Shown here: in pieces, positions 4,191 to 33,403 of the stretch
Layout: the number at the start of each line of letters is the position of its first letter
Numbering within the stretch: the first letter of the stretch is position 1
Source: Nitrospirota bacterium
GTDB taxonomy: Bacteria; Nitrospirota; JACRHL01
Length of the DNA stretch: 33,901 bases
Direction of reading: 5' to 3'
Assembly: GCA_029881725.1 (NCBI GenBank)
Contig: JAOUMB010000030.1
Location: 1-33,901, forward strand
Program-made: the position numbers and the translations under genes
The notes under the pieces: model-generated
Databases searched by the model: none
Told to the model about the DNA's origin: nothing
The model's input: the letters and a program-made list of their open reading frames with translations, nothing else

Positions 4191-4227
4191 GCGGTCCGGG
4201 TGGTGGCGGGCGGCGCCGGGGAGGGGC

Positions 4228-4268: not shown

Positions 4269-4284
4269 GCCTCCGGGCCCCGCC

Positions 4285-13416: not shown

Positions 13417-13760
13417 CTTCAAACAATACGGGTAATCGGTTCCGGTAAATAGAGCGGCTGGCTGCGGGCGGGCCCGGTGGCACGGTTGGGGGAACCGGGA
13501 TTGTCATGAACCACCGGGAACGGACCCGCAACCAGCCGCCGACCGGTCGCCCCGGAATCCGGGGCGGAGCCAAAAAAGGCGGTGGTAGCGAATTTCGCTT
13601 CCGGGAGGTTAGACGAGCGGCGCGGTCAAAAGGTTCCATTCCCTCCAAAAAAACCTGCGGGCGGCCGCGGTGGAATCCGTTCCGTCCTTTGGGTAAAGCC
13701 CGGCCCCGTATATGCCGAAACGACAGTTACGGGAAGCGTGTGTCCGTTGGGCGGGCACAC

Positions 13761-13789
13761 TGGAAACCCATAGTGAGGGACAGTTTCCA
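13761..13789 (+). promoter_or_regulatory. Hairpin holding the ribosome-binding site of the 1265-aa gene
   Basis: TGGAAAC (13761-13767) and GTTTCCA (13783-13789) form a perfect 7-bp inverted repeat. The GAGGG ribosome-binding site lies in the 15-base loop and the A of the ATG is the last paired base. This arrangement could tune initiation. The 366 bases upstream of the gene hold no other feature I can support. Confidence 0.4.
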
Positions 13790-16700: not shown

Positions 16701-17586
16701 CCCCGCCGCCTGGGACCGCCGGGCGCGGGTGGGGCATGTTCCCGCCAGCGTGAGCGGCGCCAATGTGGTGGACCTTTCCCAGTCGAGGGAAATGGCCGAA
16801 CTGAGCCGCCTGCGCCGCCATTCGGACTACATTCCGGTGGCCGAGGCCGCCTCGCAGCAGGTGGCGCGCGGGCATTTTGCCCGGGCGGTGGAAATGTGGC
16901 AAAAATTCCTGCCTTCGGCGGAGGGGCACAACCGTGGCATGGCCATGAACGCCATCGGGGACGTTTACGTGCGCACCGGGGATGTGGCCACCGCCACCGC
17001 CCATTTCGAGCAGGCCATCCGGTCGTTCGAGGAATCGGGCTACTACACCAAGGCCGTGGCGGCGCTCAAGAAGATTCGCAAACTGTCTCCGGCGAATGCA
17101 AAACTCCACCTGCAACTGGGCGAACTGGCGGCCCGTTGCGGCCGTCTGGGAGATGCGGTGGACGCCTACCTGCACTATGCCCGGCGCATGGTGGACAAGG
17201 GCGACGTGTTCGCGGCGCGCGGCATCTTCGACCGCATCCGCATCCTGGATCCGATCAACGCCCGGCACCGCCTGCAACTGGCGGCGGAGCTTCAGGATTT
17301 CGGCTTTCTGGATGAGGCGGTGGCCGAGATCATCAACGCGGCCGACATTCTGATGGCCCAGGGGCGCCAGGAGGAGGCGCAACGTCACCTGACGCGCATG
17401 ATGGATGCGGCGCCCGGCAACGCACCCCTGCAAAAGGCGCTGGAACGGGTGGCCGCGGGGCAGGTTCCGGTGGAGCCGGAAGCCCCGCTGGAAGACGGCC
17501 TGTGCCCCACGAACACCGACCTGGAGGGGGACGACGGCTCCTTCTGGCACCGGCCGCTGGAAACGGACGGCGGTCCACCGGCCTGA
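13789..17586 (+). CDS. 1265-aa chimera: recombinase-like N-terminus, low-complexity middle, C-terminal TPRs
   Basis: Residues 1-105 follow the fold pattern of the serine-recombinase catalytic domain: AIGYFRV at the first strand, then ALLVVDTVESL and YKRLKSAGTRLVVLKEHLDD. The nucleophile position is Pro11 and the expected DRLxR arginines are absent, so it cannot be an active recombinase. Residues about 125-1010 are acidic and Pro/Ala-rich, probably disordered. This stretch contains three DIDxL motifs (residues 233, 261 and 389), two AEFSADAL copies and a 50-residue tandem repeat. Residues about 1020-1240 are TPR units ending in a charged tail. No signal peptide is seen, so it is cytoplasmic. 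Function is unknown; a scaffold or regulatory hub is inferred. It stands alone between a Sel1 gene and a strong terminator. Confidence 0.85.
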   Translation: MGKAIGYFRVPGSGGPVGQGGDPEQTIRHWCSSHQHQVAAVHSDRGAATDGLDSALGAAVDAALLVVDTVESLAAAGGSAQSVYKRLKSAGTRLVVLKEHLDDRADPQAVLRALGVSDGAGPDVRITFSPADDDAEQASAGGGYALPEMDGDEVADEYAVPTLSLDDLDGELSAEELAELAPAPTFGDEQEAGVVPADDNEAVGVWSLDDEGDEEASDSDADEPKLSIATDQDDIDALLASRADSVNSAAAAGTKPAEQGDIDFLMAMHAGRPAAEPKAAAPAAPQPAAAPPQEPAPAMPEPPATPPSAMEMAPPAGMPGEVPAADPGAISLDLSPADGSGNTPAQAAAPPAAEETDLNLDEDTGNGTFPPTFNDDGKTTVPTPAQQTDIDFLVAMHGARRNVPAPLNPAANKAPASKPADDFSLPPSTAAPLGVAPADAPPLGGTPLEGDPAPSGETGVDAPASGYDLTVPPSAAPPLGGVSTAPATPGERVIYPVDDDYGYQVPPRRPQGSAPVESAPEPAASDTEGGMDLVIDNPFEDLAREMAGDATMQMARELTGGFGDDATLEAAPEQGNREESVEEDARRSMTIPPPPPGVPQRNLSRPRGDLFQAGQLREAPKSYSPLAPISGMETEQPAPPAPSAPAEFSADALAAEAPVAGAPEAGMPATDTPDTAGAPAEFSADALSVDTPAATPAGEPPMADFLELGGTAEAQAVQPPATPAEQPPVAVTPEPSAPTGMTLPESDPMAFGAPPVPDPATEPAEAHDQGSDGVQLKPLQSGTGRMVHGELEGQVPKTVTPVGMFGKAVRDDDDTGPDSDMEGVQLKPFQSGTGHMVHGELEGQIPKTITPVGSFAKAVRDDDGIEPDLSVGMEEDEIPVGLMSDEPAGPPQPVLAGAPSGDDPGLDVAGAIARARAELLGYTGVPTGLENSRPADWPASMSGGGMASVQAPAAPPVAVPPHAGGASPAGGPAAWDRRARVGHVPASVSGANVVDLSQSREMAELSRLRRHSDYIPVAEAASQQVARGHFARAVEMWQKFLPSAEGHNRGMAMNAIGDVYVRTGDVATATAHFEQAIRSFEESGYYTKAVAALKKIRKLSPANAKLHLQLGELAARCGRLGDAVDAYLHYARRMVDKGDVFAARGIFDRIRILDPINARHRLQLAAELQDFGFLDEAVAEIINAADILMAQGRQEEAQRHLTRMMDAAPGNAPLQKALERVAAGQVPVEPEAPLEDGLCPTNTDLEGDDGSFWHRPLETDGGPPA
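16105..16404 (+). repeat. In-frame tandem duplication, 150-base period
   Basis: Two adjacent 50-codon units start at 16105 and 16255. Both encode GVQLKP-QSGTG-MVHGELEGQ-PKT-TPVG-F-KAVRDDD with few substitutions. The divergence is mostly conservative (V/I, R/H), which suggests an older duplication kept under constraint. Confidence 0.9.
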
Positions 17587-17603
17587 TCTCATGCATTCCC
17601 GAA

Positions 17604-17630
17604 GGGGGGCCGAAAGGCCCCCCTTTTTTT
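17604..17630 (+). terminator. Intrinsic terminator with GAAA tetraloop
   Basis: An 8-bp all-G+C stem (17604-17611 with 17616-17623) closes on a GAAA tetraloop and runs into seven Ts. It lies 17 bases past the stop of the 1265-aa gene and isolates it from the Sel1 gene. Confidence 0.92.
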
Positions 17631-17687
17631 GGTCCGCGCTCACGGGGTGGAGGGTGGTAAAGTCGGGATAGGGGGGAAAGGAACCGC

Positions 17688-18404
17688 ATGCGCGTACGGC
17701 TGATATCGGTGGCACTGGCGCTATGGATGGCGGGGGCGTGCATGGCCGCGCCGCGCCCGGCATTCGCCCAGGCGGGCAACTGGGTGCGCCCGGTAACGCC
17801 CGAAGACGTGGTGCATGCGGTCCAGTGGGTGGAATATTCCGCGGAACAGGGAATGTCCTGGGCCGAGTACATGCTCGGCACCCTGTATGAAACCGGGCGC
17901 GGCGTCACCCGCGATCCGGCCCGCGCCGCCGGATGGTATACCCGTGCCGCCGCCCAGGGCGAAGCCCCGGCGGCCTACCGGCTGGGGCTGCTGTATTACC
18001 GGGGCGAGGGGGTGGCGCAAAGCGACGGCACCGCCCTGGAGTGGTTCCGCCACGCGGCGGATCAGGAGCTTTCCGAGGCCCAGGCGGCACTGGGGGACAT
18101 GTATGCATTCGGGCGCGGGGTCGCTCAGGACGCCGCGATTGCCGTGGGCTGGTGGCGCCAGGCGGCGGACGGGGGCATTGCCGACGCCCGCTTCAACCTG
18201 GGCATGGCCGCCGCCTACGGGCGGGGGCTGGAGGTCGATCCCCGGCGCGCGGGCGAGTGGCTGTACGCCGCGGCCCTGCACTTCATGCAACAGGGCCAGC
18301 CGGATCAGGTGGCGCGCTGCCTTCAGGCCATGCGTCAGGCAGTGCCGGATCATCCGCTCACCGCGCAACTGGCCGACCGCCTGAGTGCCCCGGAAACACC
18401 CTGA
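17688..18404 (+). CDS. Exported Sel1-repeat protein
   Basis: The 238-aa product starts at the ATG at 17688 with AAAGGA 5 bases upstream. Residues 1-27 form a signal peptide with cleavage probably after AFA. Four regular Sel1 units follow (about residues 45-200): AEYMLGTLYETGRGVTRDP, AAYRLGLLYYRGEGVAQSD, AQAALGDMYAFGRGVAQDA and ARFNLGMAAAYGRGLEVDP, each leading into a W/Y-rich helix. The C-terminal 40 residues form a further helix pair. The predicted location is the periplasm, as a protein-binding solenoid. It is bounded by strong terminators on both sides, so it is a single-gene unit. Confidence 0.82.
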   Translation: MRVRLISVALALWMAGACMAAPRPAFAQAGNWVRPVTPEDVVHAVQWVEYSAEQGMSWAEYMLGTLYETGRGVTRDPARAAGWYTRAAAQGEAPAAYRLGLLYYRGEGVAQSDGTALEWFRHAADQELSEAQAALGDMYAFGRGVAQDAAIAVGWWRQAADGGIADARFNLGMAAAYGRGLEVDPRRAGEWLYAAALHFMQQGQPDQVARCLQAMRQAVPDHPLTAQLADRLSAPETP

Positions 18405-19399: not shown

Positions 19400-19863
19400 C
19401 GCTTCCCCTCGCTTTGACCCCCCGTTTTTCGACCGCCCGTCGCGGCCCTGCCCCTCTCGCAGGTGAATGCACGGCGGCGGCCCGACCCCTTCCGACTGGC
19501 GGGTGGGGGGGGGAAGCATGACGGAAGGGATCCGACCCCGGAGGGTCGATCGGGTCCGCCACCGGCGTTCACAAGGAACTTTTCGGAATCCGGGCGGGAA
19601 CCTTGATAGAAAATCTGCAATCAATCGCACATTTCCCGTCCGGGTCGCCTTCGGGCCGCGGTTCCAGGTCGGGCATCGCCAGACGGGGGACGGGGCGGGG
19701 CCGTACCCACCCGTGAGCCTGCGGCATGCCGCTCGCCCGTTCCCTTCCCGCGTCCGGTTCATTTCCCGATAAATCCCCCGTGCGGAGATTGCGCGCGCGG
19801 GGGGTTCCTGCCGATAAGACACCACCCCCGCCCGCTGCGCGGGGGCGTGATCGGGGAGATGCC

Positions 19864-21015
19864 GTGGCCACCTTACGCATGCACATCCAGCGCGCCGCGG
19901 CGCGTTTTCCCCACCGGGGTCTGGCGCCGCTGATCGCCGGAATCGGCGGGGTGTCGCTGGCCGGCGCGGTGCTGGCGGCGGGGCCCGTGTTGCCGTTCAC
20001 CCCGGTCGCGGCGCTGGTGCTGCATGCCGCCGCCGCGTTGGCCCTGCCGGGGTTGTGGATGGCCTGGCGCATGGCCCGCCATGCGGATCCCGGCTCCCAG
20101 GCCATGAGCGCCGACGGCTGGCTTCAGGTGGTGCTCGGGCAACTGGCGGTGGGCATGGCCGGATGCATCCTGCTGGCCCGCTGGGAGGGGCTGATCGTCC
20201 TGCCGTTGATGCTGCCGGGGCTGCTGGCCCTGCGCGCCGCCACCGAACCGCCCCCCACCGCCACCTTTCCGTGGACCCTTGCCAGCCGCCACCGTCTGGC
20301 CTGGGTGACCCTGGTGGATATGTACCTTTTGCTGGCGGGCCTCAAGCTGGTGTGGACGGCGGCCACCCCCATCGACGACCTGTTTCTGGGCCCGGCCTGG
20401 GCGCTGGCCTCCCTGTGTGTGGTGGCGGCGCTGCGTTTCGGATCGCCCGGGGCGCTGCTGCTTTCGGTTCAGCGCATGGCGGAGGACGACCGGCTGGTGG
20501 TGGACGGCCGGGTGTTTGCCCGCGAGCGGGTAACCACCTTGTTGCCGGGGGTGCTGGCGTTTGCCTCCGGCGTGGCCTGGCTGCTGGGTTGGCGCCAGTG
20601 GGTGCGCCCGGCGGAGCTGTTCGGGATGCCCCTGTGGCCGCACCTGTTCCTGCCGCTCAACCTGCTGTGGGCGGCGGCCTTGATGGCGGTGGGCGTCGGC
20701 CTGTGCCGCACCCGGACGGCGGCACCGCTGGCCGGCATCGGTCTGGCGATTGCCGCGCTGTTTCTGGTGATGGGCCGCCCGTCGCTGTGGACGGCCATCC
20801 CCCGTCACCTGGCCGCCTGGACCGGCCTGCCCCCCCAGCCTGAATGGTGGCGCGAGCCCCTGGCGCTGCTGGCGGTGGCGGCGTTGCTGCTGTTCGGCTG
20901 GACGGTGGTGGCCCTGGGCGCGGCGTGGGTGCGGTTCCGCGCCATCGATTGCCGCGAACGCCCCGCCGTCACCGGGGAGAGCCGTCCGCCCCTGTTTCCG
21001 TACTTCCCCGGCTAG
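19864..21015 (+). CDS. Polytopic membrane protein of unknown function
   Basis: The GTG at 19864 is preceded by GGAG at 5 bases and gives 383 aa. After a short basic N-terminus the product has about nine or ten hydrophobic segments. Among them are LIAGIGGVSLAGAVLAAG, LVLHAAAALALPGLW, VTLVDMYLLLAGLKLVW, VLAFASGVAWLLGW, LLWAAALMAVGVGL and LLAVAALLLFGWTVVALG. A cytoplasmic loop around residues 205-225 is charged (RMAEDDRLVVDGRVFARER). I recognise no transporter or enzyme motif. It is a single gene after the gene-free block, with no clear terminator in the 29 bases separating it from the convergent flavoprotein gene. Confidence 0.75.
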   Translation: MATLRMHIQRAAARFPHRGLAPLIAGIGGVSLAGAVLAAGPVLPFTPVAALVLHAAAALALPGLWMAWRMARHADPGSQAMSADGWLQVVLGQLAVGMAGCILLARWEGLIVLPLMLPGLLALRAATEPPPTATFPWTLASRHRLAWVTLVDMYLLLAGLKLVWTAATPIDDLFLGPAWALASLCVVAALRFGSPGALLLSVQRMAEDDRLVVDGRVFARERVTTLLPGVLAFASGVAWLLGWRQWVRPAELFGMPLWPHLFLPLNLLWAAALMAVGVGLCRTRTAAPLAGIGLAIAALFLVMGRPSLWTAIPRHLAAWTGLPPQPEWWREPLALLAVAALLLFGWTVVALGAAWVRFRAIDCRERPAVTGESRPPLFPYFPG

Positions 21016-21044
21016 CCCCCGCCCGGAAAGGCGCGGCCCCTCCC

Positions 21045-22265
21045 TCAATCCCTTCCGAGGTCGCTGTCGGCCACGCCGACACCCGCCGCCCAGCCGCTCG
21101 CCCACGCCCACTGAAAATTAAATCCCCCCAGGCGCCCGGTCACGTCCACCACCTCGCCGATGAAATACAGCCCCGGCACGTCGTTGGCCATCATGGTTTT
21201 GGACGACAGGGCGCGCGTATCCACCCCGCCCACCGTCACCTCGGCCAGCCGCCAGCCCGCCGTGGAATGGGGAACCACGGTCCAGCGGGTCAGCGCTTCG
21301 GCAATCCCGCCGATGGCCTTGTCGGAAAGGCGCGCCAGTTGATCGTCCGCGATCACCGTTTCGCACAGGATCTCCGCGAGCCGCTTGGGCACCTGACCGG
21401 ACAGCAGGTTGTGCAGCGCCTTTTTCGGGTGGCGGGCCCGTTCGGATTTGAGCCAGTGCCCCACATCCATGCCCGGCAGCAGGTTGATGCTCACCGGGTC
21501 GCCGGGGGACCAGTGGCACGAGGCATCCAGCACCGCCGGGCCGGACAGCCCCTTGTGGGTGAACAGCAGGCCGCCGGTAAAGGTCTTGTTTTTGTTCACT
21601 GTCACGGCGGCGGTGACGCTCACCCCGGCCAGGGCCTCCCAACGGGCCCGGTCGGGATCGTTAAACACAAACGGCACCAGGCCGGGACGGGGCGGCACCA
21701 CGGGAATGCCGAACTGCTCCGCGATGCGGTAGCCGAACGGGGTCGCCCCCAGCTTGGGCAGCGACAGCCCGCCGGTGGCGATCACCAGATGGGGCGCGGT
21801 GACCGCCCCGCGCGGCAGGGACAGGTGAAACCCGCCATGGTCGGCGCGGCGCACCTCCTGGACGGTCTGATGGGTGCGAATCTCCACTCCCGCGTCCCGG
21901 CAGTCCTTCACCAGCATGTCGCGAATGGCCCTGGCCCCCTGGTCGCAGAACAACTGCCCGGCGTCCTTTTCGTTCCAGGTGAGGCCGTGGGCGGTCATGC
22001 GCTCGCAAAAATCGTGGGGGGTGAAGCGGGCCAGGGCCGAGCGCACAAAGTGGGGATTGTCGGAAATGAAGTCGGAGGCGGCGGTTTCCAGGTGGGTGAA
22101 GTTGCACCGCCCGCCGCCGGAAACCAGAATCTTGGCCCCCGGCTCCCGCCCGTGCTCGAGGATTCCCACCCGCTGGCCGCGGGAGGCGGCGGCGTGCGCG
22201 CACATGAGCCCGGCGGCGCCCGCGCCGATCACGATCAGGTCAAATGGGGGGGAACCCTCCTGCAT
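21045..22265 (-). CDS. FAD-dependent oxidoreductase, BaiN/RdsA (HI0933) family
   Basis: The flavoprotein of about 406 aa has the N-terminal dinucleotide-binding motif VIGAGAAGLMCA, the family signature KILVSGGGRCNFTH near residue 50, the ATGGLSLPKLG motif, and the C-terminal FIGEVVDVTGRLGGFNFQWAWASG. These are diagnostic of the HI0933/YhiN/BaiN group. E. coli YhiN has been renamed RdsA, while BaiN is a clostridial bile-acid enzyme, so the substrate here is not assigned. The start is uncertain: ATG at 22265 or GTG at 22283, neither with a good ribosome-binding site. It lies 34-52 bases downstream of a PilZ gene on the same strand and is probably co-transcribed. Confidence 0.88.
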   Translation of the reverse strand: MQEGSPPFDLIVIGAGAAGLMCAHAAASRGQRVGILEHGREPGAKILVSGGGRCNFTHLETAASDFISDNPHFVRSALARFTPHDFCERMTAHGLTWNEKDAGQLFCDQGARAIRDMLVKDCRDAGVEIRTHQTVQEVRRADHGGFHLSLPRGAVTAPHLVIATGGLSLPKLGATPFGYRIAEQFGIPVVPPRPGLVPFVFNDPDRARWEALAGVSVTAAVTVNKNKTFTGGLLFTHKGLSGPAVLDASCHWSPGDPVSINLLPGMDVGHWLKSERARHPKKALHNLLSGQVPKRLAEILCETVIADDQLARLSDKAIGGIAEALTRWTVVPHSTAGWRLAEVTVGGVDTRALSSKTMMANDVPGLYFIGEVVDVTGRLGGFNFQWAWASGWAAGVGVADSDLGRD

Positions 22266-22317
22266 GGGAGGGGAATGGTACACTGGAACCGGGTTTCGCA
22301 GGGGGCCGGGGGGCGGC

Positions 22318-22683
22318 TCAGGTCACGCTGAAATACATTGCCACCAGGCTTTCCACCACCGTCAGCATGTGCGCGTCCAGATTGGAAAACTGGATGCCCA
22401 TGCCCTCGTTGTCGGTGCGCGCCACCCAGCCGTCGATGATCACCTCCACCGGGGATTCCGCCTCCCACACGATGAACTCGATCCGTACCGGGGTGTCCTC
22501 CGGAAAGCGCGCCTTGTTTTCCACATAGGCGCCGCCGCCGCTCAGGTTGCGCACCCAGCCGCGCACCACCTCGCTGCCGTCGGTCAGAAACACCGCCGCG
22601 CGCAACGGTACACGCACGTCCATGCGCTGTTCGCGGTTCCAGGGGGTGGTGGCCGGACGTTCCGGCCGCTCTGATTCCGACAT
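22318..22683 (-). CDS. Single-domain PilZ protein (c-di-GMP receptor)
   Basis: The 121-aa protein has the PilZ c-di-GMP signature: an arginine cluster REQRMDVR (about residues 17-24) supplying the RxxxR element, and NLSGGG (about 46-51) for the (D/N)xSxxG element. The barrel ends with GWVARTDNEGMGIQFSNLD. Both binding motifs are intact, so c-di-GMP binding is likely. The ATG has GGAGG 7 bases upstream. It is preceded by a consensus TATAAT element and followed closely by the flavoprotein gene. Diguanylate cyclases or phosphodiesterases are not encoded in this window. Confidence 0.88.
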   Translation of the reverse strand: MSESERPERPATTPWNREQRMDVRVPLRAAVFLTDGSEVVRGWVRNLSGGGAYVENKARFPEDTPVRIEFIVWEAESPVEVIIDGWVARTDNEGMGIQFSNLDAHMLTVVESLVAMYFSVT

Positions 22684-22735: not shown

Positions 22736-22919
22736 AAACATGCATTTTTGGTCGATGTTGGCACCCTGACCCGGGAGAATTGCAGGCGTTTCAAATTCGA
22801 AAAAATGCCGCGTGCACCCGTGCAACGTGCATGCTATGCTCAGTTTTTCAAGGGAAACAGGCACCCGCCCTTCGCACCGGGGACGTGGAATGGGGGGCGG
22901 ATCCGGGAACATCAGGGAA

Positions 22920-22947
22920 TTGGCCGCGCGTCCCGGCCAGATACAAT
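22920..22947 (+). promoter_or_regulatory. Candidate promoter for the kinase operon, suggesting a leaderless mRNA
   Basis: TTGGCC and TACAAT are separated by 16 bases. The -10 ends 5 bases before the ATG at 22953, so transcription would start at or next to the start codon. No Shine-Dalgarno precedes the ATG, which fits a leaderless message. Three GTGCA repeats at 22812, 22820 and 22827 lie farther upstream. Confidence 0.4.
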
Positions 22948-22952
22948 ACGCC

Positions 22953-25637
22953 ATGCCGGATGCACGCAAACAGGCGTTTTTAAAGCGCCTGGAAGAGATC
23001 AAGCGGAATTTCCACGAGCAACTCCCGGAGCGGGTGCGCCAGATCGAGCGGGATTGGGAAGTGGTCGCGGTGGGGCAGGCCGACCCCGCCCTGCTGGGGG
23101 AGCTGTATCGAAACGTGCACGGGCTGGCCGGGGCGGGGGGCAGCTTTGGCGCCGACGGGGTCAGCTCCGCCGCGCGGGAACTGGAACTGGTGCTCAAGGG
23201 GCTGGTGGACGAAGACCGCCCCCCCACCGACGAAGAGCGCGATCAGGTGCCGCCGCTGATTGCCCTGCTGGCCGCCCAGGCCCTGGGCGAAACCGAAGGC
23301 GTGGCCGCCTTCACCGCCGAACTCACCGAGCGGGGCAAGCGGCTGGTCTATCTGGTGGATGACGACGGCCTGCTGGCCGCCAAGCTGGCCGCCACCCTCA
23401 CCAGCCACGGCTACGAAGTGCAGTCCTTCGAATCCACCCCCGACCTGCTGGCCGCATGCCGCGCGGAAACCCCCAAGGCCATCGTTACCGACATGGTGTT
23501 CCCGGAAGGGGGCACCGCGGGGGCGCGGGTGGTGGACGAGTTGCGGGGCAAGGTGTACCCCATGCCGCCGGTGGTGCTGATTTCCGTGCGCGGCGACATG
23601 GAGGCGCGGCTGGCGGCGGTGCGCTCCGGGGTGGACCGCTACCTGACCAAGCCGGTCACCGGCAGGCAACTGGCCGCCGCGCTGGACAGCCTGACCGGGC
23701 GCACGCCGGACCGCCCCTACCGGGTGCTGGTGGTGGACGATCAGGAGAGTCTGGCCTCCTTCTATACCGAGGTGCTCAAGGGCGCCGGCATGGAGGTGGA
23801 GACCGTCACCAGCGCCTTGCTGGGGCTGGAGGCGGTGGAGCGGTTCCGGCCGGAGCTGGTGCTCACCGACGTCTACATGCCGGGCTGCACCGGCCTGGAA
23901 CTGGCCGCGGTGCTGCGCCAGGACGATCGCTGGTCGCGCATGCCCATCGTGTTCCTGTCCACCGAGCACAACCTGGACCGGCAGATGGCCGCCATGAATC
24001 TGGGCGGTGACGAGTTTCTGACCAAGCCGGTGACCCCGGCCCACCTGGTTTCGGCCCTGTCGGCGCGCCTCAAGCGGGCCCGCCACATGGCCCACCTGAG
24101 CGATGACCTGCGCGCGGCCCTCACCGAAAGCCGCCAGCGGCTGGAGGCGGTCAGCCGCCACTGCATGGTGGTCACCGCCGACGGCGACGGCACGGTCACC
24201 TCGGTGAACCGGCGTTTCGAGGCCGTGTCCGGGCGGCGGGCGGAAGCCCTGGTGGGCAGCCCCCTGTCGGAACTGTTCGGCCAGGGGTTTACCGCCATGT
24301 GGGCCCATGCCGGGCAGGGGCAGACCTGGAACGGCGAGGTGGAGGCCCTTCCCGGCGAAACCCCGTTTGTGCTGCACGCCACCCTGGTGCCGCACCTGGA
24401 CCGCACCGGCTCCCCGCACCAGTACATGCTGATCGCCACCGACGTGACCGAACACCGTCAGGCCGAGGCGGGCGCCATTCAGGCCAACCGCGCCAAGAGC
24501 GAATTCCTGTCGCGCATGAGCCACGAACTGCGCACCCCGCTGAACGCCATTCTCGGGTTTTCGCAACTGCTGGAAATCGACCCGGAAGTGCCCGACGGGC
24601 CCCGGCAGGCGGTGTCGGAGATTACCCAGGCGGGCAGCCACCTGCTGGACCTGATCAACGACGTGCTCGACCTGTCGCGCATTGAAGCCGGCAACCTGAA
24701 CCTGCGCATGGGGCCGGTGCCCTTGGAACCGCTGCTGGCGGCGGCCATCACCCTGGTGCAACCGCTGGCCGACCGGTATCAGGTTCACATCCATGCGGAG
24801 CCGCTGCCGGACCCGGAGGCCACCGTCCGCGCCGACCCGGTGCGGGTGCGTCAGGTTCTGGTGAATCTGCTGTCCAACGCGGTCAAGTACAACCGGCCCG
24901 AAGGCTCCGCCACCGTGCGGGTGACGGAGGCGTCGGGCCACTGGCGGGTGGAGGTCATCGATACCGGCCAGGGCATTCCCAAGCATCGGGAGGCGCTCCT
25001 GTTCGAGCCGTTCGAGCGGCTGGGGGCGGAGGACAGCGCCGTGGAGGGAACCGGCATCGGCCTGAATATCGTGCGCCATCTGGTGGGCGACATGGGCGGC
25101 GAGTTGGGGTATGAATCCACCGAAGGGCAGGGCAGTTCCTTCTGGTTTACCCTCCCGGCCACCTCCCCGCTAAGCCGCCAGGACGGAGATCAGGCCCAGG
25201 TGGCCGCCGAAGTTGCCGGGGCCGCTCCGGAGCCGGTGGAAACCGGTGCCCCGCGCACGGTGCTGTACATCGAGGACAACCCGGCCAACCTGCGGCTGGT
25301 GAGCGAACTCATGGGGCGCCGCCCGGAGCTCACCCTGCTCACCGCCAGCCAGCCGGAGGAGGGCATCGAACTGGCCCGTACCCACCGGCCGGCGCTGGTG
25401 CTGCTGGACATCGGCCTGCCGGGCATGGACGGCTTCGAGGTGCTGCGCAGGCTGCGCAAGGAGGACGCCACGCGGAACATTCCGGTGGTGGCCGTCACCG
25501 GCAACGCCATGCCCGCCGACCGGGAGCGGGGTGAACAGGCCGGGTTTGACGACTATCTGGTCAAGCCGTTCCGGCTCAACACCTTTTACGCCACCCTCAA
25601 CCAGCACCTGAACAACGACATGCCGGAGACCCCGTGA
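22953..25637 (+). CDS. Soluble hybrid sensor kinase, Hpt-REC-REC-PAS-HK-REC
   Basis: The 894-aa cytoplasmic protein begins with an Hpt domain (about 1-105; phospho-acceptor His56 in NVHGLAGAGGSFG). Two receiver domains follow (about 120-240, Asp180; about 252-370, Asp306), then a PAS domain (about 385-500). The HisKA domain carries His524 in SHELRTPLNAILGFSQLLE, and the HATPase has DTGQGIP and GTGIGLNIV. A third receiver (about 765-885) carries Asp819. All phospho-acceptor residues are present. The first receiver has Pro-Glu-Gly-Gly instead of the usual MPGMDG after its Asp. Having Hpt, kinase and three receivers on one chain makes a complete internal phosphorelay possible. An upstream same-frame start exists, but the ATG at 22953 fits the domain boundary. 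Its stop overlaps the next gene's GTG. Confidence 0.87.
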   Translation: MPDARKQAFLKRLEEIKRNFHEQLPERVRQIERDWEVVAVGQADPALLGELYRNVHGLAGAGGSFGADGVSSAARELELVLKGLVDEDRPPTDEERDQVPPLIALLAAQALGETEGVAAFTAELTERGKRLVYLVDDDGLLAAKLAATLTSHGYEVQSFESTPDLLAACRAETPKAIVTDMVFPEGGTAGARVVDELRGKVYPMPPVVLISVRGDMEARLAAVRSGVDRYLTKPVTGRQLAAALDSLTGRTPDRPYRVLVVDDQESLASFYTEVLKGAGMEVETVTSALLGLEAVERFRPELVLTDVYMPGCTGLELAAVLRQDDRWSRMPIVFLSTEHNLDRQMAAMNLGGDEFLTKPVTPAHLVSALSARLKRARHMAHLSDDLRAALTESRQRLEAVSRHCMVVTADGDGTVTSVNRRFEAVSGRRAEALVGSPLSELFGQGFTAMWAHAGQGQTWNGEVEALPGETPFVLHATLVPHLDRTGSPHQYMLIATDVTEHRQAEAGAIQANRAKSEFLSRMSHELRTPLNAILGFSQLLEIDPEVPDGPRQAVSEITQAGSHLLDLINDVLDLSRIEAGNLNLRMGPVPLEPLLAAAITLVQPLADRYQVHIHAEPLPDPEATVRADPVRVRQVLVNLLSNAVKYNRPEGSATVRVTEASGHWRVEVIDTGQGIPKHREALLFEPFERLGAEDSAVEGTGIGLNIVRHLVGDMGGELGYESTEGQGSSFWFTLPATSPLSRQDGDQAQVAAEVAGAAPEPVETGAPRTVLYIEDNPANLRLVSELMGRRPELTLLTASQPEEGIELARTHRPALVLLDIGLPGMDGFEVLRRLRKEDATRNIPVVAVTGNAMPADRERGEQAGFDDYLVKPFRLNTFYATLNQHLNNDMPETP

Positions 25638-28600
25638 CCGACGCGCCGGAGACGCCGATTCCCCCCTCCACCGACCCGCTCCACCCGCTGCCGCCGTTTG
25701 CCGGCCGCACGCACCTGTCGGGCTTTCTGGCCGCCACGGCGGTACCCGTGCTGCTGCTGGCGGCGCTGGCCTCCTACCTGATCGGCGGCCTGCTGGACGA
25801 CCTGGAGCATTCCCGTGGCGAGCGGAGGGGGCTGCACATCGCCCACGCCCTGTACCACGTGATGGGGCGTTTTCAGGAACTGCGCGGGCTGGAATTGATG
25901 TACGACAGCGGGTCACGCGGGGTGGAGGAACAGATCCGCGGGGCGCAGGAGGAACTCGCCGCCGCGCTGGATGAACTGGCGGACGATGCGGCCACGGCGG
26001 AGTTCGGCATCCGGGTCGAGATCGAGGAGTTGCAGCGGCACAACGTGCCGGAGTTCGGGGCCACCAAGGGCAACACCCCGGATACCGGCAAGCGGCATTA
26101 CGCCCTGCTGTCGGAGGCCATTGCCGAGGTCCGGGTGGCGCAGGCGCTGGTGGCCGACCGCTCCGGGCTGATCCTGCCGCGGGAACTGGACGGCCGCTAT
26201 CTGGTGGACCTGGCCGTGTACCGGCTGGGAGAATTTTCCGACTCCGTGGGTGAAACCCGCGCCATCGCCGCCGGGATTCTGGCCACCGGGCGGGTGACCC
26301 CTCCCGATCTGGCCACCCTGCACGGGCTCACCGCCCGCATGGAGGGGGCGCTGGATCAGGTGCGCCACGACATGGATGTGGTCACCGCCACCGCCCCGCA
26401 TCTGGCGGACGTGTTCCGTCCGTTCCGTGTGCAGATCGAGCGCCGCTCCGAGCTCTTTTCCAAAGAACTGGGCCGGGTGGAGGCGGGGATGCCGGGCATC
26501 CCCATGGAGCGCCTGTTCGAGCTTTCCACCCCCATCCTCGCCATCACCGAAGTGCTGCACGACCGCGCGGTCGACCTGATGGACGGCATTCTCGCCCACC
26601 GGGAGGCGGAACTGCGGGGCAACGTTCAGGCGGTGGTGGCGGCGGCCGGGGTCATCGCCCTGGTGATGATCCTGCTGATCACCTTTTATTACCGCACCAA
26701 CCAGCGCAGCGTCCGGCAACGGGACGAAACCATCCACCTGCTGGACGTGATCGGGTCGGCGCAAACCGAATTCATCAACCGCAAACACCCCCAGGAGGCC
26801 TTCGACCTGCTGCTGACCGGGCTGCTGGACCTGACGGAAAGCGAATACGGTTTCATCGGCGAGGTGCTGCACGGGGACGATGGCAATCCGTATCTGAAGT
26901 CCCGCGCCATCACCAACATCGCCTGGAATGAGGAGACCCGCCGCTTTTACGATCAGGAAGCCCCCAGGGGGCTGGAGTTTTTCAACCTGAAAACCCTGTT
27001 TGGCGCGGTGATGACCAGCGGGGAGCCGGTGGTGACCAACGATCCGGCCAACGACCCGCGCCGGGGGGGGCTGCCGGAGGGGCACCCGGACCTGAACGCC
27101 TTTCTGGGGGTGCCGATCTACAAGGGCGCCGAACTGATCGGCATGGCGGGCATCGCCAACCGGCCGGGCGGGTATTCGCGGGCGATGATCGCCGGCCTGC
27201 GTCCCTACCTGTCCACCTGCGCCCACCTGATTTCCGCCCACCGCACCGAACGGGCGGTGGCCGACAGCGACGAGCGTCACCGGGCGGTGATCACCACCAT
27301 GGTGGACGCGGTGGTGGTGATCGACGACATGGGCACCATCGAGCGCTTCAACCCGGCGGCGGAGCGCATGTTCGGCTATGCGGCGCGGGAGGTCATCGGC
27401 CAGAACGTCAACATCCTGATGCCGGAGCCGTACCACTCGGAGCACGACGGCTACCTTGAGCGGTACAACACCACCGGCGACGCGCGCATCCTCGGCATCG
27501 GCCGCGAGGTGTCCGGACGCCGCAAGGACGGCAGCGTGTTCCCGCTGGATCTGGCGGTGAACCAGATGGAGGTGGCCGGCAGCCGCATGTATGTGGGCAT
27601 CCTGCGCGACATTTCGGAGCGCAAGCGCATGGAGGCCATGAAGGGTGAGTTCATCTCCACCGTCAGCCACGAGTTGCGCACCCCGCTCACCTCCATTCGC
27701 GGCGCGCTGGGCCTGCTGCGCGGCGGAGCGGCGGGCCCCATTCCCGACAAGGCGGCGGAGCTGCTGGGCATCGCCCACAACAACACCGAACGGCTGCTGC
27801 TGCTGATCAACGACATTCTGGACATCGACAAGATTGAGTCCGGCAACATGCCGTTCCGCTTTGTGCCGACCGAACTGGCCGCGTTCATCCAGGAGGCGGT
27901 CACCTCCCATGAGGGGTATGCCCAGCAGCACGGGGTCACGTTTTCCATCACCGGGGTGGACACCGGGCTGGCGGTCAACGCCGATCCGGACCGGATGATG
28001 CAGGTGCTGGCCAACCTGCTCTCCAACGCCGCCAAGTTTTCACCGGAAGGGGGCGTGGTGGAGGTCAGCGCCCGGCGGCGAAATGGCATGGTGCGCATCT
28101 GCGTGACCGACAGCGGCCCCGGCATCCCGGAGGAATTCCAGGCCCGCGTGTTCGAAAAGTTCACCCAGTCCGACGCCACCGATACCCGCGTGTCCGGCGG
28201 CACCGGCCTGGGCCTGAGCATCGCCCGCGCCATCGTGGAAAAACACGGGGGCACCATCGGTTTTTCCACCGTGGTCGGGGCGGGCACCACCTTCCATGTG
28301 GACCTGCCCGAAGTGGGCGATTCCAGTCCCTCCCGTCCGCAGGGGGAACCGTCGGTGGATGAACGGTCCTCGGTACTGATCGTGGAGGACGACGCGGACG
28401 TGGCGCGCATCATCAGCCGGATGCTCGCCACCGACGGCGTGCGCAGCGACGTGGCCACCAGCGGCGAGGCAGGCCTGAAGATGCTGGAGCGCCACCCGTA
28501 CAAGGTCATCACCCTGGACCTGCGGCTGCCCGGCATGAGCGGGGTGGAGTTCATCAACGCGCTGCGCCGCAAGCCACACACCCGCCGGGTGCCGGTGGTG

Positions 28601-29077
28601 GTGGTTTCCGCCTATGCCGGCACCGCCCAGGGGGAACTGGAGGGGGGTGCGGCGGATATCTTCGACTGGCTGGAAAAGCCCATCGACGAAACCCGCCTGC
28701 TGCTGGCGGTGCGCGAGGCGGGGCAGGGGGGAACGGCCCGCGTGCTGCACGTGGAGGACGAGCCGGACGTGCGCCGGGTGGTATCCCTGCTGCTGGAGGG
28801 CAAGGCCACGGTCCGCGCGGCGGCCACCCTGGCCGAGGCCCGAAAGGCGCTGGCGGAGGATGCCTTCGACCTGATTCTGCTGGATCAGGGGCTGCCGGAC
28901 GGAAACGGGGTGGATCTGCTGGAGGACGTGCAGAAGCTGACCGCCGATAAACCCCGCGTGGTGGTGTTTTCCGCCCTGGAGGTCACCCGCGAAACCCAGG
29001 AGCGGGTGGACGCGGTGCTGATGAAATCCACCACCAGCAACGCGCGCCTGTTTGATACAATCAAGGCCTATCTGTAA
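25634..29077 (+). CDS. Membrane hybrid sensor kinase with GAF and FixL-like PAS, two C-terminal receivers
   Basis: The GTG start overlaps the upstream TGA (GTGA), giving 1147 aa. Membrane helices at about 30-53 and 331-351 enclose a helical periplasmic domain. A GAF domain (about 372-540) and a PAS domain (about 550-655) follow. The HisKA has His679 in SHELRTPLTSI, and the HATPase has DSGPGIPEEF and GTGLGLSIA. Two receivers follow, with Asp962 and Asp1084. The PAS contains EHDGYLERY and ILGIGR: His604, Arg610 and Arg624 fall exactly where FixL has the haem ligand His200, Arg206 and Arg220. Oxygen or redox sensing is therefore plausible but not proven. It probably shares a phosphorelay with the Hpt protein upstream and the receiver downstream. 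Confidence 0.88.
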   Translation: MTDAPETPIPPSTDPLHPLPPFAGRTHLSGFLAATAVPVLLLAALASYLIGGLLDDLEHSRGERRGLHIAHALYHVMGRFQELRGLELMYDSGSRGVEEQIRGAQEELAAALDELADDAATAEFGIRVEIEELQRHNVPEFGATKGNTPDTGKRHYALLSEAIAEVRVAQALVADRSGLILPRELDGRYLVDLAVYRLGEFSDSVGETRAIAAGILATGRVTPPDLATLHGLTARMEGALDQVRHDMDVVTATAPHLADVFRPFRVQIERRSELFSKELGRVEAGMPGIPMERLFELSTPILAITEVLHDRAVDLMDGILAHREAELRGNVQAVVAAAGVIALVMILLITFYYRTNQRSVRQRDETIHLLDVIGSAQTEFINRKHPQEAFDLLLTGLLDLTESEYGFIGEVLHGDDGNPYLKSRAITNIAWNEETRRFYDQEAPRGLEFFNLKTLFGAVMTSGEPVVTNDPANDPRRGGLPEGHPDLNAFLGVPIYKGAELIGMAGIANRPGGYSRAMIAGLRPYLSTCAHLISAHRTERAVADSDERHRAVITTMVDAVVVIDDMGTIERFNPAAERMFGYAAREVIGQNVNILMPEPYHSEHDGYLERYNTTGDARILGIGREVSGRRKDGSVFPLDLAVNQMEVAGSRMYVGILRDISERKRMEAMKGEFISTVSHELRTPLTSIRGALGLLRGGAAGPIPDKAAELLGIAHNNTERLLLLINDILDIDKIESGNMPFRFVPTELAAFIQEAVTSHEGYAQQHGVTFSITGVDTGLAVNADPDRMMQVLANLLSNAAKFSPEGGVVEVSARRRNGMVRICVTDSGPGIPEEFQARVFEKFTQSDATDTRVSGGTGLGLSIARAIVEKHGGTIGFSTVVGAGTTFHVDLPEVGDSSPSRPQGEPSVDERSSVLIVEDDADVARIISRMLATDGVRSDVATSGEAGLKMLERHPYKVITLDLRLPGMSGVEFINALRRKPHTRRVPVVVVSAYAGTAQGELEGGAADIFDWLEKPIDETRLLLAVREAGQGGTARVLHVEDEPDVRRVVSLLLEGKATVRAAATLAEARKALAEDAFDLILLDQGLPDGNGVDLLEDVQKLTADKPRVVVFSALEVTRETQERVDAVLMKSTTSNARLFDTIKAYL

Positions 29078-29119: not shown

Positions 29120-29509
29120 ATGTCCGACCTGAATCGCATTTTGTACGTGGAAGACGAGGCGGACATCCGCACCGTGGCCCAACTGGCGCTGGAGAGTGTG
29201 GGGGGCTTTCAGGTGATGGCCTGCCCCGGCGGCAAGGAAGCGGTGGCCGCCGCGCCGCAATTCGCCCCGGACCTGATTGTGCTGGATGTGATGATGCCCG
29301 GCATGGACGGCCCCACCACCCTGGCCGAACTGCGCAAGCTGGATGGCCTGGAAAAAACCCCGGTGGTGTTCATGACCGCCAAGGTGCAGCCGCCGGAAAT
29401 CGATTTTTACAAGTCGCTGGGGGCGGTGGAGGTGATCGTCAAGCCGTTCGATCCCATGGCCCTGTCCGATCAGGTGCGCGCCGCCTGGCGCACCGCCACC
29501 GGCGCTTGA
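29120..29509 (+). CDS. CheY-like single-domain response regulator
   Basis: The 129-aa protein is a stand-alone receiver. It has the acidic pair in YVEDEAD (residues 9-15), the phospho-acceptor Asp56 in LIVLDVMMPGMDG, the switch Thr in VVFMTAK, and the lysine in VIVKPFDP. No output domain follows. GGGAAG lies 4 bases before the ATG. It begins 42 bases after the membrane kinase gene and most likely exchanges phosphate with the two hybrid kinases, possibly through the Hpt domain of the first. Its TGA overlaps the TTG start of dtd. Confidence 0.9.
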   Translation: MSDLNRILYVEDEADIRTVAQLALESVGGFQVMACPGGKEAVAAAPQFAPDLIVLDVMMPGMDGPTTLAELRKLDGLEKTPVVFMTAKVQPPEIDFYKSLGAVEVIVKPFDPMALSDQVRAAWRTATGA

Positions 29510-29943
29510 TTGCCCTGATCCAGCGCACCAGCGGCGCCACCCTGTGCATCGCCGGAGACGAAACCGCCCGCATCGGCCCGGGCCTGGTGGCGCTGATCGG
29601 CGTGGTCAAATCCGACACCGAAGCCAATGCCCGCCGCCTGGCGGAGCGGGTGCGCACCTACCGGGTGTTCCCCGATGCGGACGGGCGCATGAACCGCAGC
29701 CTGGCCGACACCGGCGGCGGGCTGCTGCTGGTGCCCAACTTCACCCTGGCGGCGGATACGGACAAGGGCACCCGCGCCGGGTTCTCCACCGGCGCGCCGC
29801 CGGAGGCGGCGGAACAGCTGTTCAACCAGCTGGTCCATCATGCGCGCGCCGCCCACGGTGAAGTGCAGTGCGGCGTGTTCGGCGCCCATATGCAGATCAC
29901 CCTCACCAACGACGGCCCGGTGACCTTCTGGCTGGAGGGGTAG
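29506..29943 (+). CDS. dtd: D-aminoacyl-tRNA deacylase
   Basis: This enzyme removes D-amino acids mischarged onto tRNA. The start TTG at 29506 overlaps the receiver gene's TGA within TTGA and yields 145 aa beginning MIALIQRTSGATL, which aligns with the conserved DTD N-terminus. The motif that is usually SQFTL reads PNFTL here, and the cross-subunit Gly-cisPro motif is intact in TNDGPVTFWLE near the C-terminus. RIF is YRVF, and MNRSLAD is conserved. It is the last gene of the signalling operon by position. The coupling is probably positional rather than functional. The 220 bases after it hold only a short GGCG-CTAAA-CGCC hairpin (29999-30011) and the tRNA-like scar. Confidence 0.9.
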   Translation: MIALIQRTSGATLCIAGDETARIGPGLVALIGVVKSDTEANARRLAERVRTYRVFPDADGRMNRSLADTGGGLLLVPNFTLAADTDKGTRAGFSTGAPPEAAEQLFNQLVHHARAAHGEVQCGVFGAHMQITLTNDGPVTFWLEG

Positions 29944-30045
29944 GCGCGTGCAAGTCTTCTGTGTCTGGCGTCGTTTGATCGCAAGGGAACACAAGATTGG
30001 CGCTAAACGCCTATTGACTTCAGCAAATCGGTGATTAAACAACAA

Positions 30046-30116
30046 GGAGCGGGATGAAAATATCAGCAGATAGGGTGCGATAAAAAGGTTGAGGATTCGA
30101 TTCCCTCCCCGCTCCA
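30046..30116 (+). other. Degenerate tRNA-like sequence (possible integration scar)
   Basis: GGAGCGGG (30046-30053) pairs perfectly with CCCGCTCC (30108-30115), like an acceptor stem. Directly inside the 3' strand is a T-arm-like GAGGA-TTCGATT-CCCTC with one mismatch. The D-arm is missing, the anticodon arm is at best 3 bp and the interior is only 54 bases, so this is not a working tRNA. It lies 48 bases before the low-G+C ATPase gene. A tRNA 3' fragment in this position is typical of an integrase attachment site or its remnant. Confidence 0.45.
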
Positions 30117-30163
30117 GACGTTATTAGGCCCAAGAGAGTCAATATTTAGGCGGAGGTGCCACC

Positions 30164-32824
30164 GTGAGTAGTGGAGCGGATCCCACCAGTAAAATTCTGG
30201 AATGGGCGGCGAAACAGGATTTGTGGTTGCAAGATGCGTTGCGCCGCCTCACCCAAACCCGGACGCTATCGGAAACTGATCGGGCCGACATTTTGCAAAT
30301 GGTCAAGGCACGGCACGATCTGGTCAAACCGGAAAGTGCTCCGAAAGCCGTGCCTATTAGCCTGGATCACCTCACCGATTCGGCCGAGCACCCGGACACC
30401 CTCCACCTCAAGTCGCTTGGCAACATACAACACGCAAACAACCTTGCCCCCGGACAAATTCTGCCCTTTTGTTCCACCCTTACGGTTGTTTACGGAGAGA
30501 ACGCCAGCGGCAAGTCGGGTTACGCTCGGATTATCAAGAATGCGGCTGGGGCGCGGGGGTGGGAAAATCACCCTGTTCTTGGGAATGTATTCGAGATGGA
30601 TGAGGATGTCCCCCCTTCCCCACAGGCGACCTTTGTCGTGCGTTTCGGTGACGCCGAACCAATAAATCTGCCCTGGATAGACCATGCGATTCTACCGGAT
30701 ATGAAACGAGTACGGGTTTTTGACACCCGGACCGCAACGATCTATGTCGGTTCAGAATCAGAACTCGCATTCGAACCGTTCGGGCTGGACCTTTTAGAGT
30801 CGCTGACGGGAGAACTGAACCTGATCAGGGAACACCTGGGGGGTGAAATCCAAACGGAGGAGAAAAACTGTATCAGGCTCGTCGATTCCCTTCCAAAGGT
30901 GGGAACCGCCGCAGACTTTGTACAAGGACTGACCTCCCAGACTACCGCGGCACAAATTGCGGCAGCTACAGCCTGGACCGAAGAAAAGGACGAACAGAGA
31001 CTCTGCGAGGTCAAAAACCTGATTGAACAGGCCGGGTCTGTGGCGCGGGGACTGCGCAACCAAAAGGCCCGCTGTGTGGTTTTGCTTGCTCGGGTCAAGG
31101 CGTTGGAGACCTTTCTTTCCGAAAACTGGGCAGCCACCTTGCAGGAACTTGTGACCGACGCAGTCACCAAGCGTCAGGCAGCAGTCGAATTGTCCACGGA
31201 GGCATTCGGGAGGGAACCGCTACCAGGTGTTGGGGGAATCCCATGGCGGATCATGTGGGACGCGGCGGTGGATTATCACAAGGGGGCGGCCTACCCGGAC
31301 CGCGAATTTCCTGTCACAGAGGGGGACGATGCTTTCTGCCTTCTGTGTCAGCAACCTCTGGGTGAGCCAGCGCGGCAGCGATTCCAGCGATTCCACGACC
31401 ATGTCGCTGGCGTCATTGCGCGTCAATCCCAAGAGGCGGAGCGAAAGTATCAGACTGCGTTGGACACCCTAGGGGAACTCTCCCCAGGGATCACGGCTGA
31501 CGATATTGCCTTGTTTGACGATGTGGGGAAGGACAATCTGGCTCTGGCTGACGCCCTCAACAAATTCTTTCTCGCGGCAGGGAATCGGAAGAGTGGGCTT
31601 GAGCGTGCACTGCAGACGCAAGATTTTACTAACCTGGAGGGTGTCCCCTCCCAAGTTTCTGCGGGGTTGTCCACCTATATTAACGACTTGGAGAAGAGAG
31701 CTACGGTTGCGGACGGTGCGGTCAAGCCGGAGGAACAACAGAAGCTACTCGACGAGCACAACGAGCTGGCAGGACGAAAGGCCCTGAAAGGCCACATCAC
31801 CACCATTAAGGGGGTAGTGAAAGGCAAGCGGGCGGTTGCTTCCCTTAACGTATGCCACGCGGCACTGAAAACCAACGCTATATCCAAGGAGAAAGGCAGG
31901 CTCAGGGAGCTTCTGGTAGACACAGAATTTAATACCAAGCTTAAAGGGGAATTGAAGGAACTCGAGGTACGGCAGAACGTCAAACTCGGTTTCCGGTCAC
32001 CAAAGGACGGAACCAAGCAATATACCCAGTTCCAGGGTGCAAAGGTAAAACCAAAAGAAATGGAGGACGTGCTTAGCGAGGGAGAGTTCCGCGCCGTGGC
32101 GCTTGCGTGCTTCCTGGCGGAGGCTGGTCAAGTCCCCGGTAACGCTCCGCTGGTGATCGACGATCCAGTATCATCACTCGACCATGAGCGACGGAAGCTG
32201 GTAGCGAGGCGCTTGGCGCGGGAGGCGAAAGACCGCCAAGTGATTGTCTTCACCCACGATCTAGCTTTTTATAACGATCTGGCGGATGCGGCGGGTGAGC
32301 TACAAGTGCCGTGGAAGCAGGTGGAGGTAACCAATTCACCCGAGGGATATGGGTATGTGCGCGCAGACGAAGTCCCCTGGGAGAGGCAATCTGTTACAAC
32401 TCGCCTCAAAAAACTCGAGGATGATCTGCCCCGCTTGGAGGCCTTGTATAACAGTGGTGACTCAAGCTACGCAGAGCAGTCCGAGCATTTCTGCGTTCAG
32501 TTGCGAAAGACTTGGGAGCGGTTTGTCGAAGCGGATGTCCTTAACGGTGTGGTAACCCGATTTGGGTACGAAATTAAAACCCTAAGCCTCAAACGAGCGG
32601 TGGTGACCGACGATCTGTACGAGAAGATATTTTGGGGGGTGAAGCGCGTGAACCCGGGGGCCCATGACGGTGCACCGGCTGCCAAGCCGCCCCCCCTCAA
32701 GCCGACTGAGTTGAAAGAGTGCATCGCCAGCCTGCGGCAGTTGCGGGAGGATACAAAACAAGCCGCGAAAAAAATGGAAGAGGAGCGGAAAAAGAGGGAG
32801 AACCCACCGAAAGCGAAGGACTGA
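30164..32824 (+). CDS. Rad50/AAA_13-type ATPase, RloC-like anticodon nuclease candidate
   Basis: The GTG at 30164 has GGAGG 7 bases upstream and gives 886 aa. The ABC-type ATPase head is split across the protein. Walker A is YGENASGKSGYARI (Lys117), the signature-like LSEGE is at 637-641, Walker B plus D-loop is VIDDPVSSLD (Asp666-Asp673), and the switch His698 is in FTHDL. Between the halves are coiled-coil segments and a zinc-hook-like CLLC (Cys392, Cys395). After the head, Arg781, Glu785 and His834 match the R-x3-E...H order of the PrrC/RloC ribonuclease triad. RloC enzymes cleave tRNA anticodon loops in phage or DNA-damage responses. Hand counts of 31501-31560 and 31861-31920 give 52-53% G+C versus 72% at 28381-28440, suggesting transfer. 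The ATPase call is firm; the nuclease call is tentative. Confidence 0.83.
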   Translation: MSSGADPTSKILEWAAKQDLWLQDALRRLTQTRTLSETDRADILQMVKARHDLVKPESAPKAVPISLDHLTDSAEHPDTLHLKSLGNIQHANNLAPGQILPFCSTLTVVYGENASGKSGYARIIKNAAGARGWENHPVLGNVFEMDEDVPPSPQATFVVRFGDAEPINLPWIDHAILPDMKRVRVFDTRTATIYVGSESELAFEPFGLDLLESLTGELNLIREHLGGEIQTEEKNCIRLVDSLPKVGTAADFVQGLTSQTTAAQIAAATAWTEEKDEQRLCEVKNLIEQAGSVARGLRNQKARCVVLLARVKALETFLSENWAATLQELVTDAVTKRQAAVELSTEAFGREPLPGVGGIPWRIMWDAAVDYHKGAAYPDREFPVTEGDDAFCLLCQQPLGEPARQRFQRFHDHVAGVIARQSQEAERKYQTALDTLGELSPGITADDIALFDDVGKDNLALADALNKFFLAAGNRKSGLERALQTQDFTNLEGVPSQVSAGLSTYINDLEKRATVADGAVKPEEQQKLLDEHNELAGRKALKGHITTIKGVVKGKRAVASLNVCHAALKTNAISKEKGRLRELLVDTEFNTKLKGELKELEVRQNVKLGFRSPKDGTKQYTQFQGAKVKPKEMEDVLSEGEFRAVALACFLAEAGQVPGNAPLVIDDPVSSLDHERRKLVARRLAREAKDRQVIVFTHDLAFYNDLADAAGELQVPWKQVEVTNSPEGYGYVRADEVPWERQSVTTRLKKLEDDLPRLEALYNSGDSSYAEQSEHFCVQLRKTWERFVEADVLNGVVTRFGYEIKTLSLKRAVVTDDLYEKIFWGVKRVNPGAHDGAPAAKPPPLKPTELKECIASLRQLREDTKQAAKKMEEERKKRENPPKAKD

Positions 32825-32842
32825 TGGCAACGAGGGTAGGCG

Positions 32843-33403
32843 CTACCGGGGCCGGCAGATGAACCGGTAGCCCGCTGCAGATTCGATCTCCCAGCAACCG
32901 GATTCGAGAATCGCCGCCCTTGCGGCCTTCGGGGACAAATGCCCACTGTCGGCGAGGAGCACGCCGTCCGGCTTCAGGATGCGGTGCATCTCGCGGTAAT
33001 ACAGGTCGCGGCGGGTGACCATGTGCACCACGTCGAAGGAGATCACCACATCCGCCACCCGGTCCGGCAGGTCGCAGTGCTGGTCGGTCACCAGCGCGGT
33101 GCGGACGTTGCTCAATCCCTCGCGCCGGACACGCGCCCGGACATCCGCGAGGGCCAGTTCGTGCACGTCCGCGGCGTATACGGTTCCCGCATCCCCCACC
33201 GCACGCGCCAGCGCGGGGATGAACCGGCCGGGGCCGCAGCCGTAATCCACCACCGTCATGCCGGGTTTCAGGCCCATCTCCGCCACCTGCGCGGCGGCCC
33301 GGTTCACGCGGTCCACCCCCCGGGTGAGCAGGAAGGCCATCACCCGATACAGGGGCGCGGGCAGGCGGTCTACGCGGGCGTGGATCAGGGTGTCCAGGTT
33401 CAC
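32843..33403 (-). CDS. Class I SAM-dependent methyltransferase
   Basis: The 186-aa product has the Rossmann-fold methyltransferase motifs: motif I VVDYGCGPGRF near residue 52, an acidic residue ending strand 2 (YAADVHE), VISFDVVHMV as motif IV, and MHRILKPDGVLL as the post-II strand-turn. This places it in the Methyltransf_11/25 group acting on small molecules or lipids; the substrate cannot be told. An N-terminal helical segment (DRLPAPLYRVMAFLL) precedes the fold. The GTG start at 33403 overlaps the upstream TGA as GTGA, so translation is coupled to the DksA/TraR-like gene. It faces the ATPase gene tail to tail, 18 bases apart, and resumes the high-G+C composition. Confidence 0.85.
   Translation of the reverse strand: MNLDTLIHARVDRLPAPLYRVMAFLLTRGVDRVNRAAAQVAEMGLKPGMTVVDYGCGPGRFIPALARAVGDAGTVYAADVHELALADVRARVRREGLSNVRTALVTDQHCDLPDRVADVVISFDVVHMVTRRDLYYREMHRILKPDGVLLADSGHLSPKAARAAILESGCWEIESAAGYRFICRPR

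Follow-up and report, generated by a model that had tools for sequence, protein, structure and literature searches.

A long-form RloC-like gene without a recognised restriction-modification partner in a low-G+C insert of a Nitrospirota genome

A 33,901-nucleotide contig of a Nitrospirota bacterium, referred to here as the window, carries near its right end a single long gene in DNA of lower G+C content, which a preliminary description had put forward as an orphan RloC-like defence ATPase. The locus raises the question of what kind of protein this is, and of how it might act with no restriction-modification (R-M) gene beside it.

The gene and its low-G+C insert

The open reading frame proposed at 30164-32824 on the forward strand is real; it runs for 886 codons from a GTG start, a few bases downstream of GGAGGT (30152-30157, +), which we read from the sequence as a probable Shine-Dalgarno-like element, and GUG starts are not unusual among RloC genes (PMC2610378, PMC3874168). 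The G+C content of the gene is 55.9% versus 68.5% for window positions 1-29943, and the lowest value among stretches of equal length before the gene is 64.9%, so that the lower-G+C setting first noticed by eye is borne out. The composition shifts at about 29950 and again between 32800 and 33100, delimiting an insert of 56% G+C within DNA of 69% G+C, in which the RloC-like gene is the sole gene and which was probably acquired horizontally. To the left of the insert lie a response regulator (29120-29509) and a D-aminoacyl-tRNA deacylase-like frame, and to the right a methyltransferase and a DksA-like gene, the deacylase and DksA assignments coming from reading of the translations. A 10-bp direct repeat, GGGTAGGCGC, is found at the left border (29938-29947, +) and at the right border (32834-32843, +) and is possibly a target or core duplication; since about 1.5% of random 61-bp pairs have some 10-mer in common, and the repeat was spotted post hoc, we regard it as no more than suggestive.

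Integration at a tRNA gene was also considered. The stretch at 30046-30116 (+) contains an 8-bp arm (GGAGCGGG/CCCGCTCC) and a T-arm-like sequence, GAGGATTCGATTCCCTC; by eye it resembles the 3' half of a tRNA, and it had been called a tRNA-like scar. ARAGORN called no tRNA at these positions, Rfam returned no match there even at a permissive threshold, and a search of the host genome (2.96 Mb, 98% complete, 126 contigs), in which 44 tRNAs were found, revealed no second copy with up to three mismatches allowed. A tRNA of any kind is present at 7 of 54 homologous loci, one of the seven having it about 0.5 kb or less upstream, and tRNAs are thus not typical of such loci. The proposed scar is unsupported on these grounds and gives no reason to postulate integration at a tRNA gene, and the stretch is described here as a stem with a T-arm-like sequence that is not confirmed as a tRNA remnant.

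No R-M gene was recognised among the ten main open reading frames of the window, and HsdM_N was not detected anywhere in the 98%-complete host genome, which makes a type I R-M partner acting in trans unlikely. The gene does therefore stand alone in this respect, as had been claimed, and this is the normal state for RloC, linkage to type I or III R-M having been found in 8 of 73 cases in the original survey (PMC2610378). An empty insertion site was sought in the close relatives examined, none of which contains the right flank; one relative (G001) retains the kinase and the regulator, and the deacylase part, the methyltransferase and the DksA-like gene were not found in the 16 kb examined there. 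No relative was found in three further genomes of the host's family. This last result, together with the single copy and the failure to detect type I R-M in the host, is what might be expected of an inactive remnant left behind by horizontal transfer, yet the frame is full-length, the ribosome-binding site is plausible and the ATPase, hook and triad residues described below are all retained, and we consider a remnant most improbable.

Elsewhere in the window, 22812-25637 and 25634-29077 encode, side by side, two hybrid histidine kinases of multidomain build that carry several receiver domains, the second of which is the kinase retained in G001, at 54% identity. Four long open reading frames, 13612-17763 (-), 605-2638 (+), 2655-4421 (+) and 19726-22331 (+), had no Pfam match at 1e-5 and are either unknown proteins or frames that arose spuriously in high-G+C DNA.

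ATPase head, zinc hook and C-terminal tail

The full protein was modelled with AlphaFold2 at a pLDDT of 90.6, from an alignment built of the window, genome and viral loci. In the domain layout obtained, residues 1-77 form a small helical domain, residues 78-200 and ~600-720 each supply one half of an ABC/Rad50 ATPase head, and residues ~208-599 are predicted to be a mostly helical insert between them. The head contains, all on the forward strand, Walker A (GENASGKS, residues 111-118, 30494-30517), the ABC signature (LSEGE, residues 637-641, 32072-32086), Walker B with the D-loop (DDPVSSLD, residues 666-673, 32159-32182) and an invariant switch, or linchpin, histidine, H698 (32255-32257). The coiled-coil insert carries the CxxC zinc-hook motif C392-L-L-C395 (31337-31348, +), both cysteines of which are invariant among 96 nearly full-length sequences. 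Foldseek matched the whole model to SMC and Mre11-Rad50 heads (5xei, 8.5e-10; 7zr1, 3e-9), and with the motifs in place the Rad50-type split ATPase and CxxC hook suggested initially are confirmed. The N-terminal helical domain (residues 7-71, 30182-30376, +), with W14 conserved at 93% and W21 at 99%, is typical of what we call below the long branch; it has no Pfam match and, in a search of plasmids, was confined to the long-form RloC-like family.

Residues 744-879 (32393-32800, +) are predicted to form a C-terminal four-helix, HEPN-like domain (AlphaFold2, fold search, PADLOC). AlphaFold2 on 77 such tails gave a pLDDT of 94.7 and a pTM of 0.87, with helices predicted at 744-764, 768-792, 816-832 and 847-879 and an insert separating helix 2 from helix 3. 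The predicted nuclease triad consists of R781-X3-E785 (32504-32518, +), whose two residues are each 99% conserved and are placed by the model in helix 2, and H834 (32663-32665, +), placed at the end of helix 3, just after its last turn, whereas the near-invariant R799 (98%; 32558-32560, +) falls between helices 2 and 3. In HEPN domains an acidic residue sits in helix 2 and helix 3 ends with a histidine, and the nuclease domains of PrrC and RloC have been assigned to HEPN (PMC3710099); the modelled tail shows this same layout of a four-helix bundle, helix-2 acidic residue and helix-3-end histidine. A fold search of the PDB with the tail gave an archaeal HEPN protein, 1wol, as the top match, which is not significant (E 0.23, probability 0.72), and also listed the HEPN toxins 7ae6 and 7bxo, YutE (1ylm) and AbiV (9bj6); the TM-scores of these HEPN matches are ~0.3-0.4 and unrelated RORgamma helical folds are interleaved with them. 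One of the 77 tails matches HEPN_RiboL-PSP (E 0.025), and R828-X5-H834 can be set against the HEPN Rx4-6H motif; at the aligned column 39 of the 96 sequences have R and 37 have K. No PrrC was found when the PDB was searched by sequence with a PrrC query. Taken together, the data are consistent with an HEPN-like RNase fold without proving it, and the modelled tail is compatible with the fold to which PrrC and RloC are assigned.

Conservation of the tail is concentrated in few positions. R781, E785 and H834, which occupy the positions first claimed for them, are invariant in an alignment of 18 sequences. Every one of the 96 nearly full-length sequences has H834 and both hook cysteines; 95 have R781, 95 have E785 and 94 have R799, the complete triad being found in 94 of 96. 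The mean column identity of the tail is just 29%, and near-invariance within an otherwise poorly conserved domain indicates that the triad behaves like an active site. The two exceptions, L071 (E to D) and L088 (R to S), are natural candidates for an altered or inactive nuclease.

Relation to RloC and PrrC, and the long branch

The 2008 definition of RloC by Davidov and Kaufmann combines ABC motifs and a coiled-coil insert holding CxxC with a C-terminal Arg-X3-Glu-X36-52-His, in which Ser often precedes the triad His, and a size of 658-897 residues; on the functional side RloC is an anticodon nuclease that excises the wobble nucleotide and is regulated by zinc and DNA ends (PMC2610378). The arrangement R781-X3-E785-X48-H834 and the length of 886 residues both fall within these limits, and the ATPase motifs, the switch histidine and the CxxC coiled-coil insert are present as judged by sequence and model, the zinc hook being predicted. 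By hhalign with full-length profiles, residues 82-861 align with 3-713 of short RloC-like proteins (99.8%, E 2.9e-28), these being the comparators on which homology to RloC rests, in place of the assayed anticodon nucleases GkaRloC (Geobacillus kaustophilus) and AbaRloC (Acinetobacter baylyi) themselves. R781 and E785 are in register in this alignment, and H834 misses the RloC histidine by one or two columns. Alignment of the isolated-tail profile with the tails of short RloC-like proteins or of PrrC was not significant, so that the case for homology depends on the register at full length and on the triad. PADLOC placed residues 8-865 in PDC-S06 (PDLC04891, E 5e-167; PDLC04893, 6e-150), and all 77 scanned tail domains match PDLC04891. 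The match to this family (PDLC04891, 04893, 04888, 04892) is near full-length, but its label is broad and also takes in short RloC-like proteins, and PDC-S06 is itself a candidate defence family, a caveat on any reading of the gene as defensive. With these matches, and with the triad conserved, the description of an RloC-like defence ATPase is supported.

PrrC is alike in joining an ABC ATPase to a C-terminal R-X3-E...H nuclease assigned to HEPN, but PrrC proteins have 341-416 residues, no coiled coil or CxxC, and linkage to type Ic R-M (PMC2610378), whereas the protein here has 886 residues, a CxxC hook and no recognised R-M genes, and is not a PrrC; the PADLOC PrrC model matches part of the ATPase only (residues 663-710, E 1.5e-6). 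GkaRloC and AbaRloC share the split Rad50-like ATPase, the coiled coil, the CxxC hook and the C-terminal R-X3-E...H tail, and RloCs usually have no R-M linkage. The hook cysteine is at 291 in GkaRloC and at 314 in AbaRloC (YP_044948), a protein of 826 residues (PMC2610378, PMC3874168), compared with 392 here, and the present protein has an extra N-terminal helical domain.

The distance from E to H separates these proteins further. It is 48-52 residues in 93 of 94 long-branch members and 64 in the other. The 11 short RloC-like proteins have 37-40, and the two PrrC-type proteins encoded on viral contigs have 35; the published values are 31 for E. coli PrrC (E324, H356) and 40 for GkaRloC (E696, H737), versus 48 here (PMC2610378). 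A tree of 50 sequences, built without GkaRloC and AbaRloC, sets the long branch apart by a fully supported split (SH-aLRT 100) and gives the short group a support of 94; some long-branch joins were flagged by the software. Judged by their geometry, the assayed GkaRloC and AbaRloC seem to belong to the short branch; we found no biochemistry on the long branch in the literature. The X36-52 spacing and the 897-residue limit suggest that the RloC set of 2008 already included long-branch proteins. The preliminary description had remarked on a histidine 53 residues from the arginine and on a possibly distinct subfamily. The distance is indeed greater than in PrrC, but X48 does not lie outside the published RloC spacing; likewise, the separate, well-supported branch and its longer spacing stand, but the spacing falls within RloC as first defined and the branch had already been catalogued. 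The protein is an ordinary, well-formed member of the known RloC kind. Its features are not surprising, since all lie within the 2008 definition and the family is already in PADLOC; what the locus adds is a member of a broad, apparently unassayed long branch in a host where type I R-M is not detectable.

Proposed mechanism, distribution and neighbours

We propose, with a rough probability of 0.68, that the gene encodes a stand-alone long-branch effector of the RloC type, in which a DNA-triggered Rad50-like ATPase would free an HEPN-like RNase and so abort phage growth, GkaRloC and AbaRloC (PMC2610378, PMC3874168) serving as the template. Two Rad50-like heads would dimerise around ATP, and the head and the coiled coil with its zinc hook may, by analogy with RloC biochemistry, sense DNA ends or damaged DNA. 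The ensuing ATP- and DNA-driven change, with the zinc hook as a presumed switch, would free the C-terminal domain bearing R781, E785 and H834 to cut RNA; the assayed RloCs make tRNA anticodon loops the most probable target. Translation would be halted and phage growth aborted, an anti-phage effect likewise modelled on RloC, and an R-M partner would not be needed. In this respect the locus is a clean example for the idea that RloC has a DNA-damage switch of its own, and it supplies a short list of residues for mutation.

The same ATPase trigger could also be coupled to a long-branch HEPN tail that cuts RNA other than anticodons, whether mRNA, rRNA or another, since HEPN RNases include both tRNases and mRNases (PMC3710099) and the long branch is marked by a spacing of its own (E-X48-52-H versus X37-40), by the additional near-invariant arginine R799 and by the extra N-terminal domain. 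The identity and order of the triad residues, however, match those of the tRNA-cutting PrrC and RloC, and the homology with RloC-like proteins extends over nearly the full length, which renders a non-anticodon target rather unlikely. A related and wider proposal, that the long branch as a whole (E-X48-52-H, an N-terminal W-x6-W helical domain, near-invariant R799, many phyla) forms a class of hook-gated HEPN RNases of separate function, with a trigger and an RNA target of its own and no need of R-M, is put forward tentatively and is at present doubtful. Our preferred reading remains the RloC-type effector that aborts phage growth.

Homologues are found at 80 genome loci in many phyla by an alignment-based scan, which succeeded where a single-sequence scan of genome contigs returned none, and at 46 viral-contig loci, part of them only distant. 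In the phylum Nitrospirota 8 of 396 genomes carry one (the host and seven more); 316 plasmid records contain homologues, and none was found in 50,697 phage records. This distribution bears on the alternative that the protein is a DNA repair ATPase like Rad50 or SbcC, with R, E and H in a structural role and no nuclease of its own. Rad50 and SbcC do share the SMC-type ATPase head, the coiled coil and the zinc hook, and a minority of homologues adjoin Mre11/SbcD-like and SbcC-like pairs. Rad50 and SbcC, however, lack such a C-terminal triad tail (PMC2610378), the triad is near-invariant in an otherwise diverged domain, no Mre11/SbcD gene was seen adjoining the RloC-like gene here, and the spread is patchy, mobile and defence-linked, making a repair function very unlikely.

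No partner gene is conserved among 88 loci, the commonest neighbour family, a resolvase, being present at 7; an HsdM family occurs at 6 and an HsdR family at 5, and pairs of an Mre11-like with an AAA_27 protein are found at 5 loci, those of SbcD with SbcC at 4. On plasmids, the neighbours of homologues include Qat genes, BREX brxL, a restriction endonuclease, AbiEii, Abi and SAVED proteins. Pairs of an Mre11/SbcD-like phosphoesterase and an SbcC/AAA_27-like ATPase were noted near the long-branch homologues L013, L015, L027, L086, L090 and L201, and near L029, L050, L052 and L109, where they might contribute to the sensing or processing of DNA ends.
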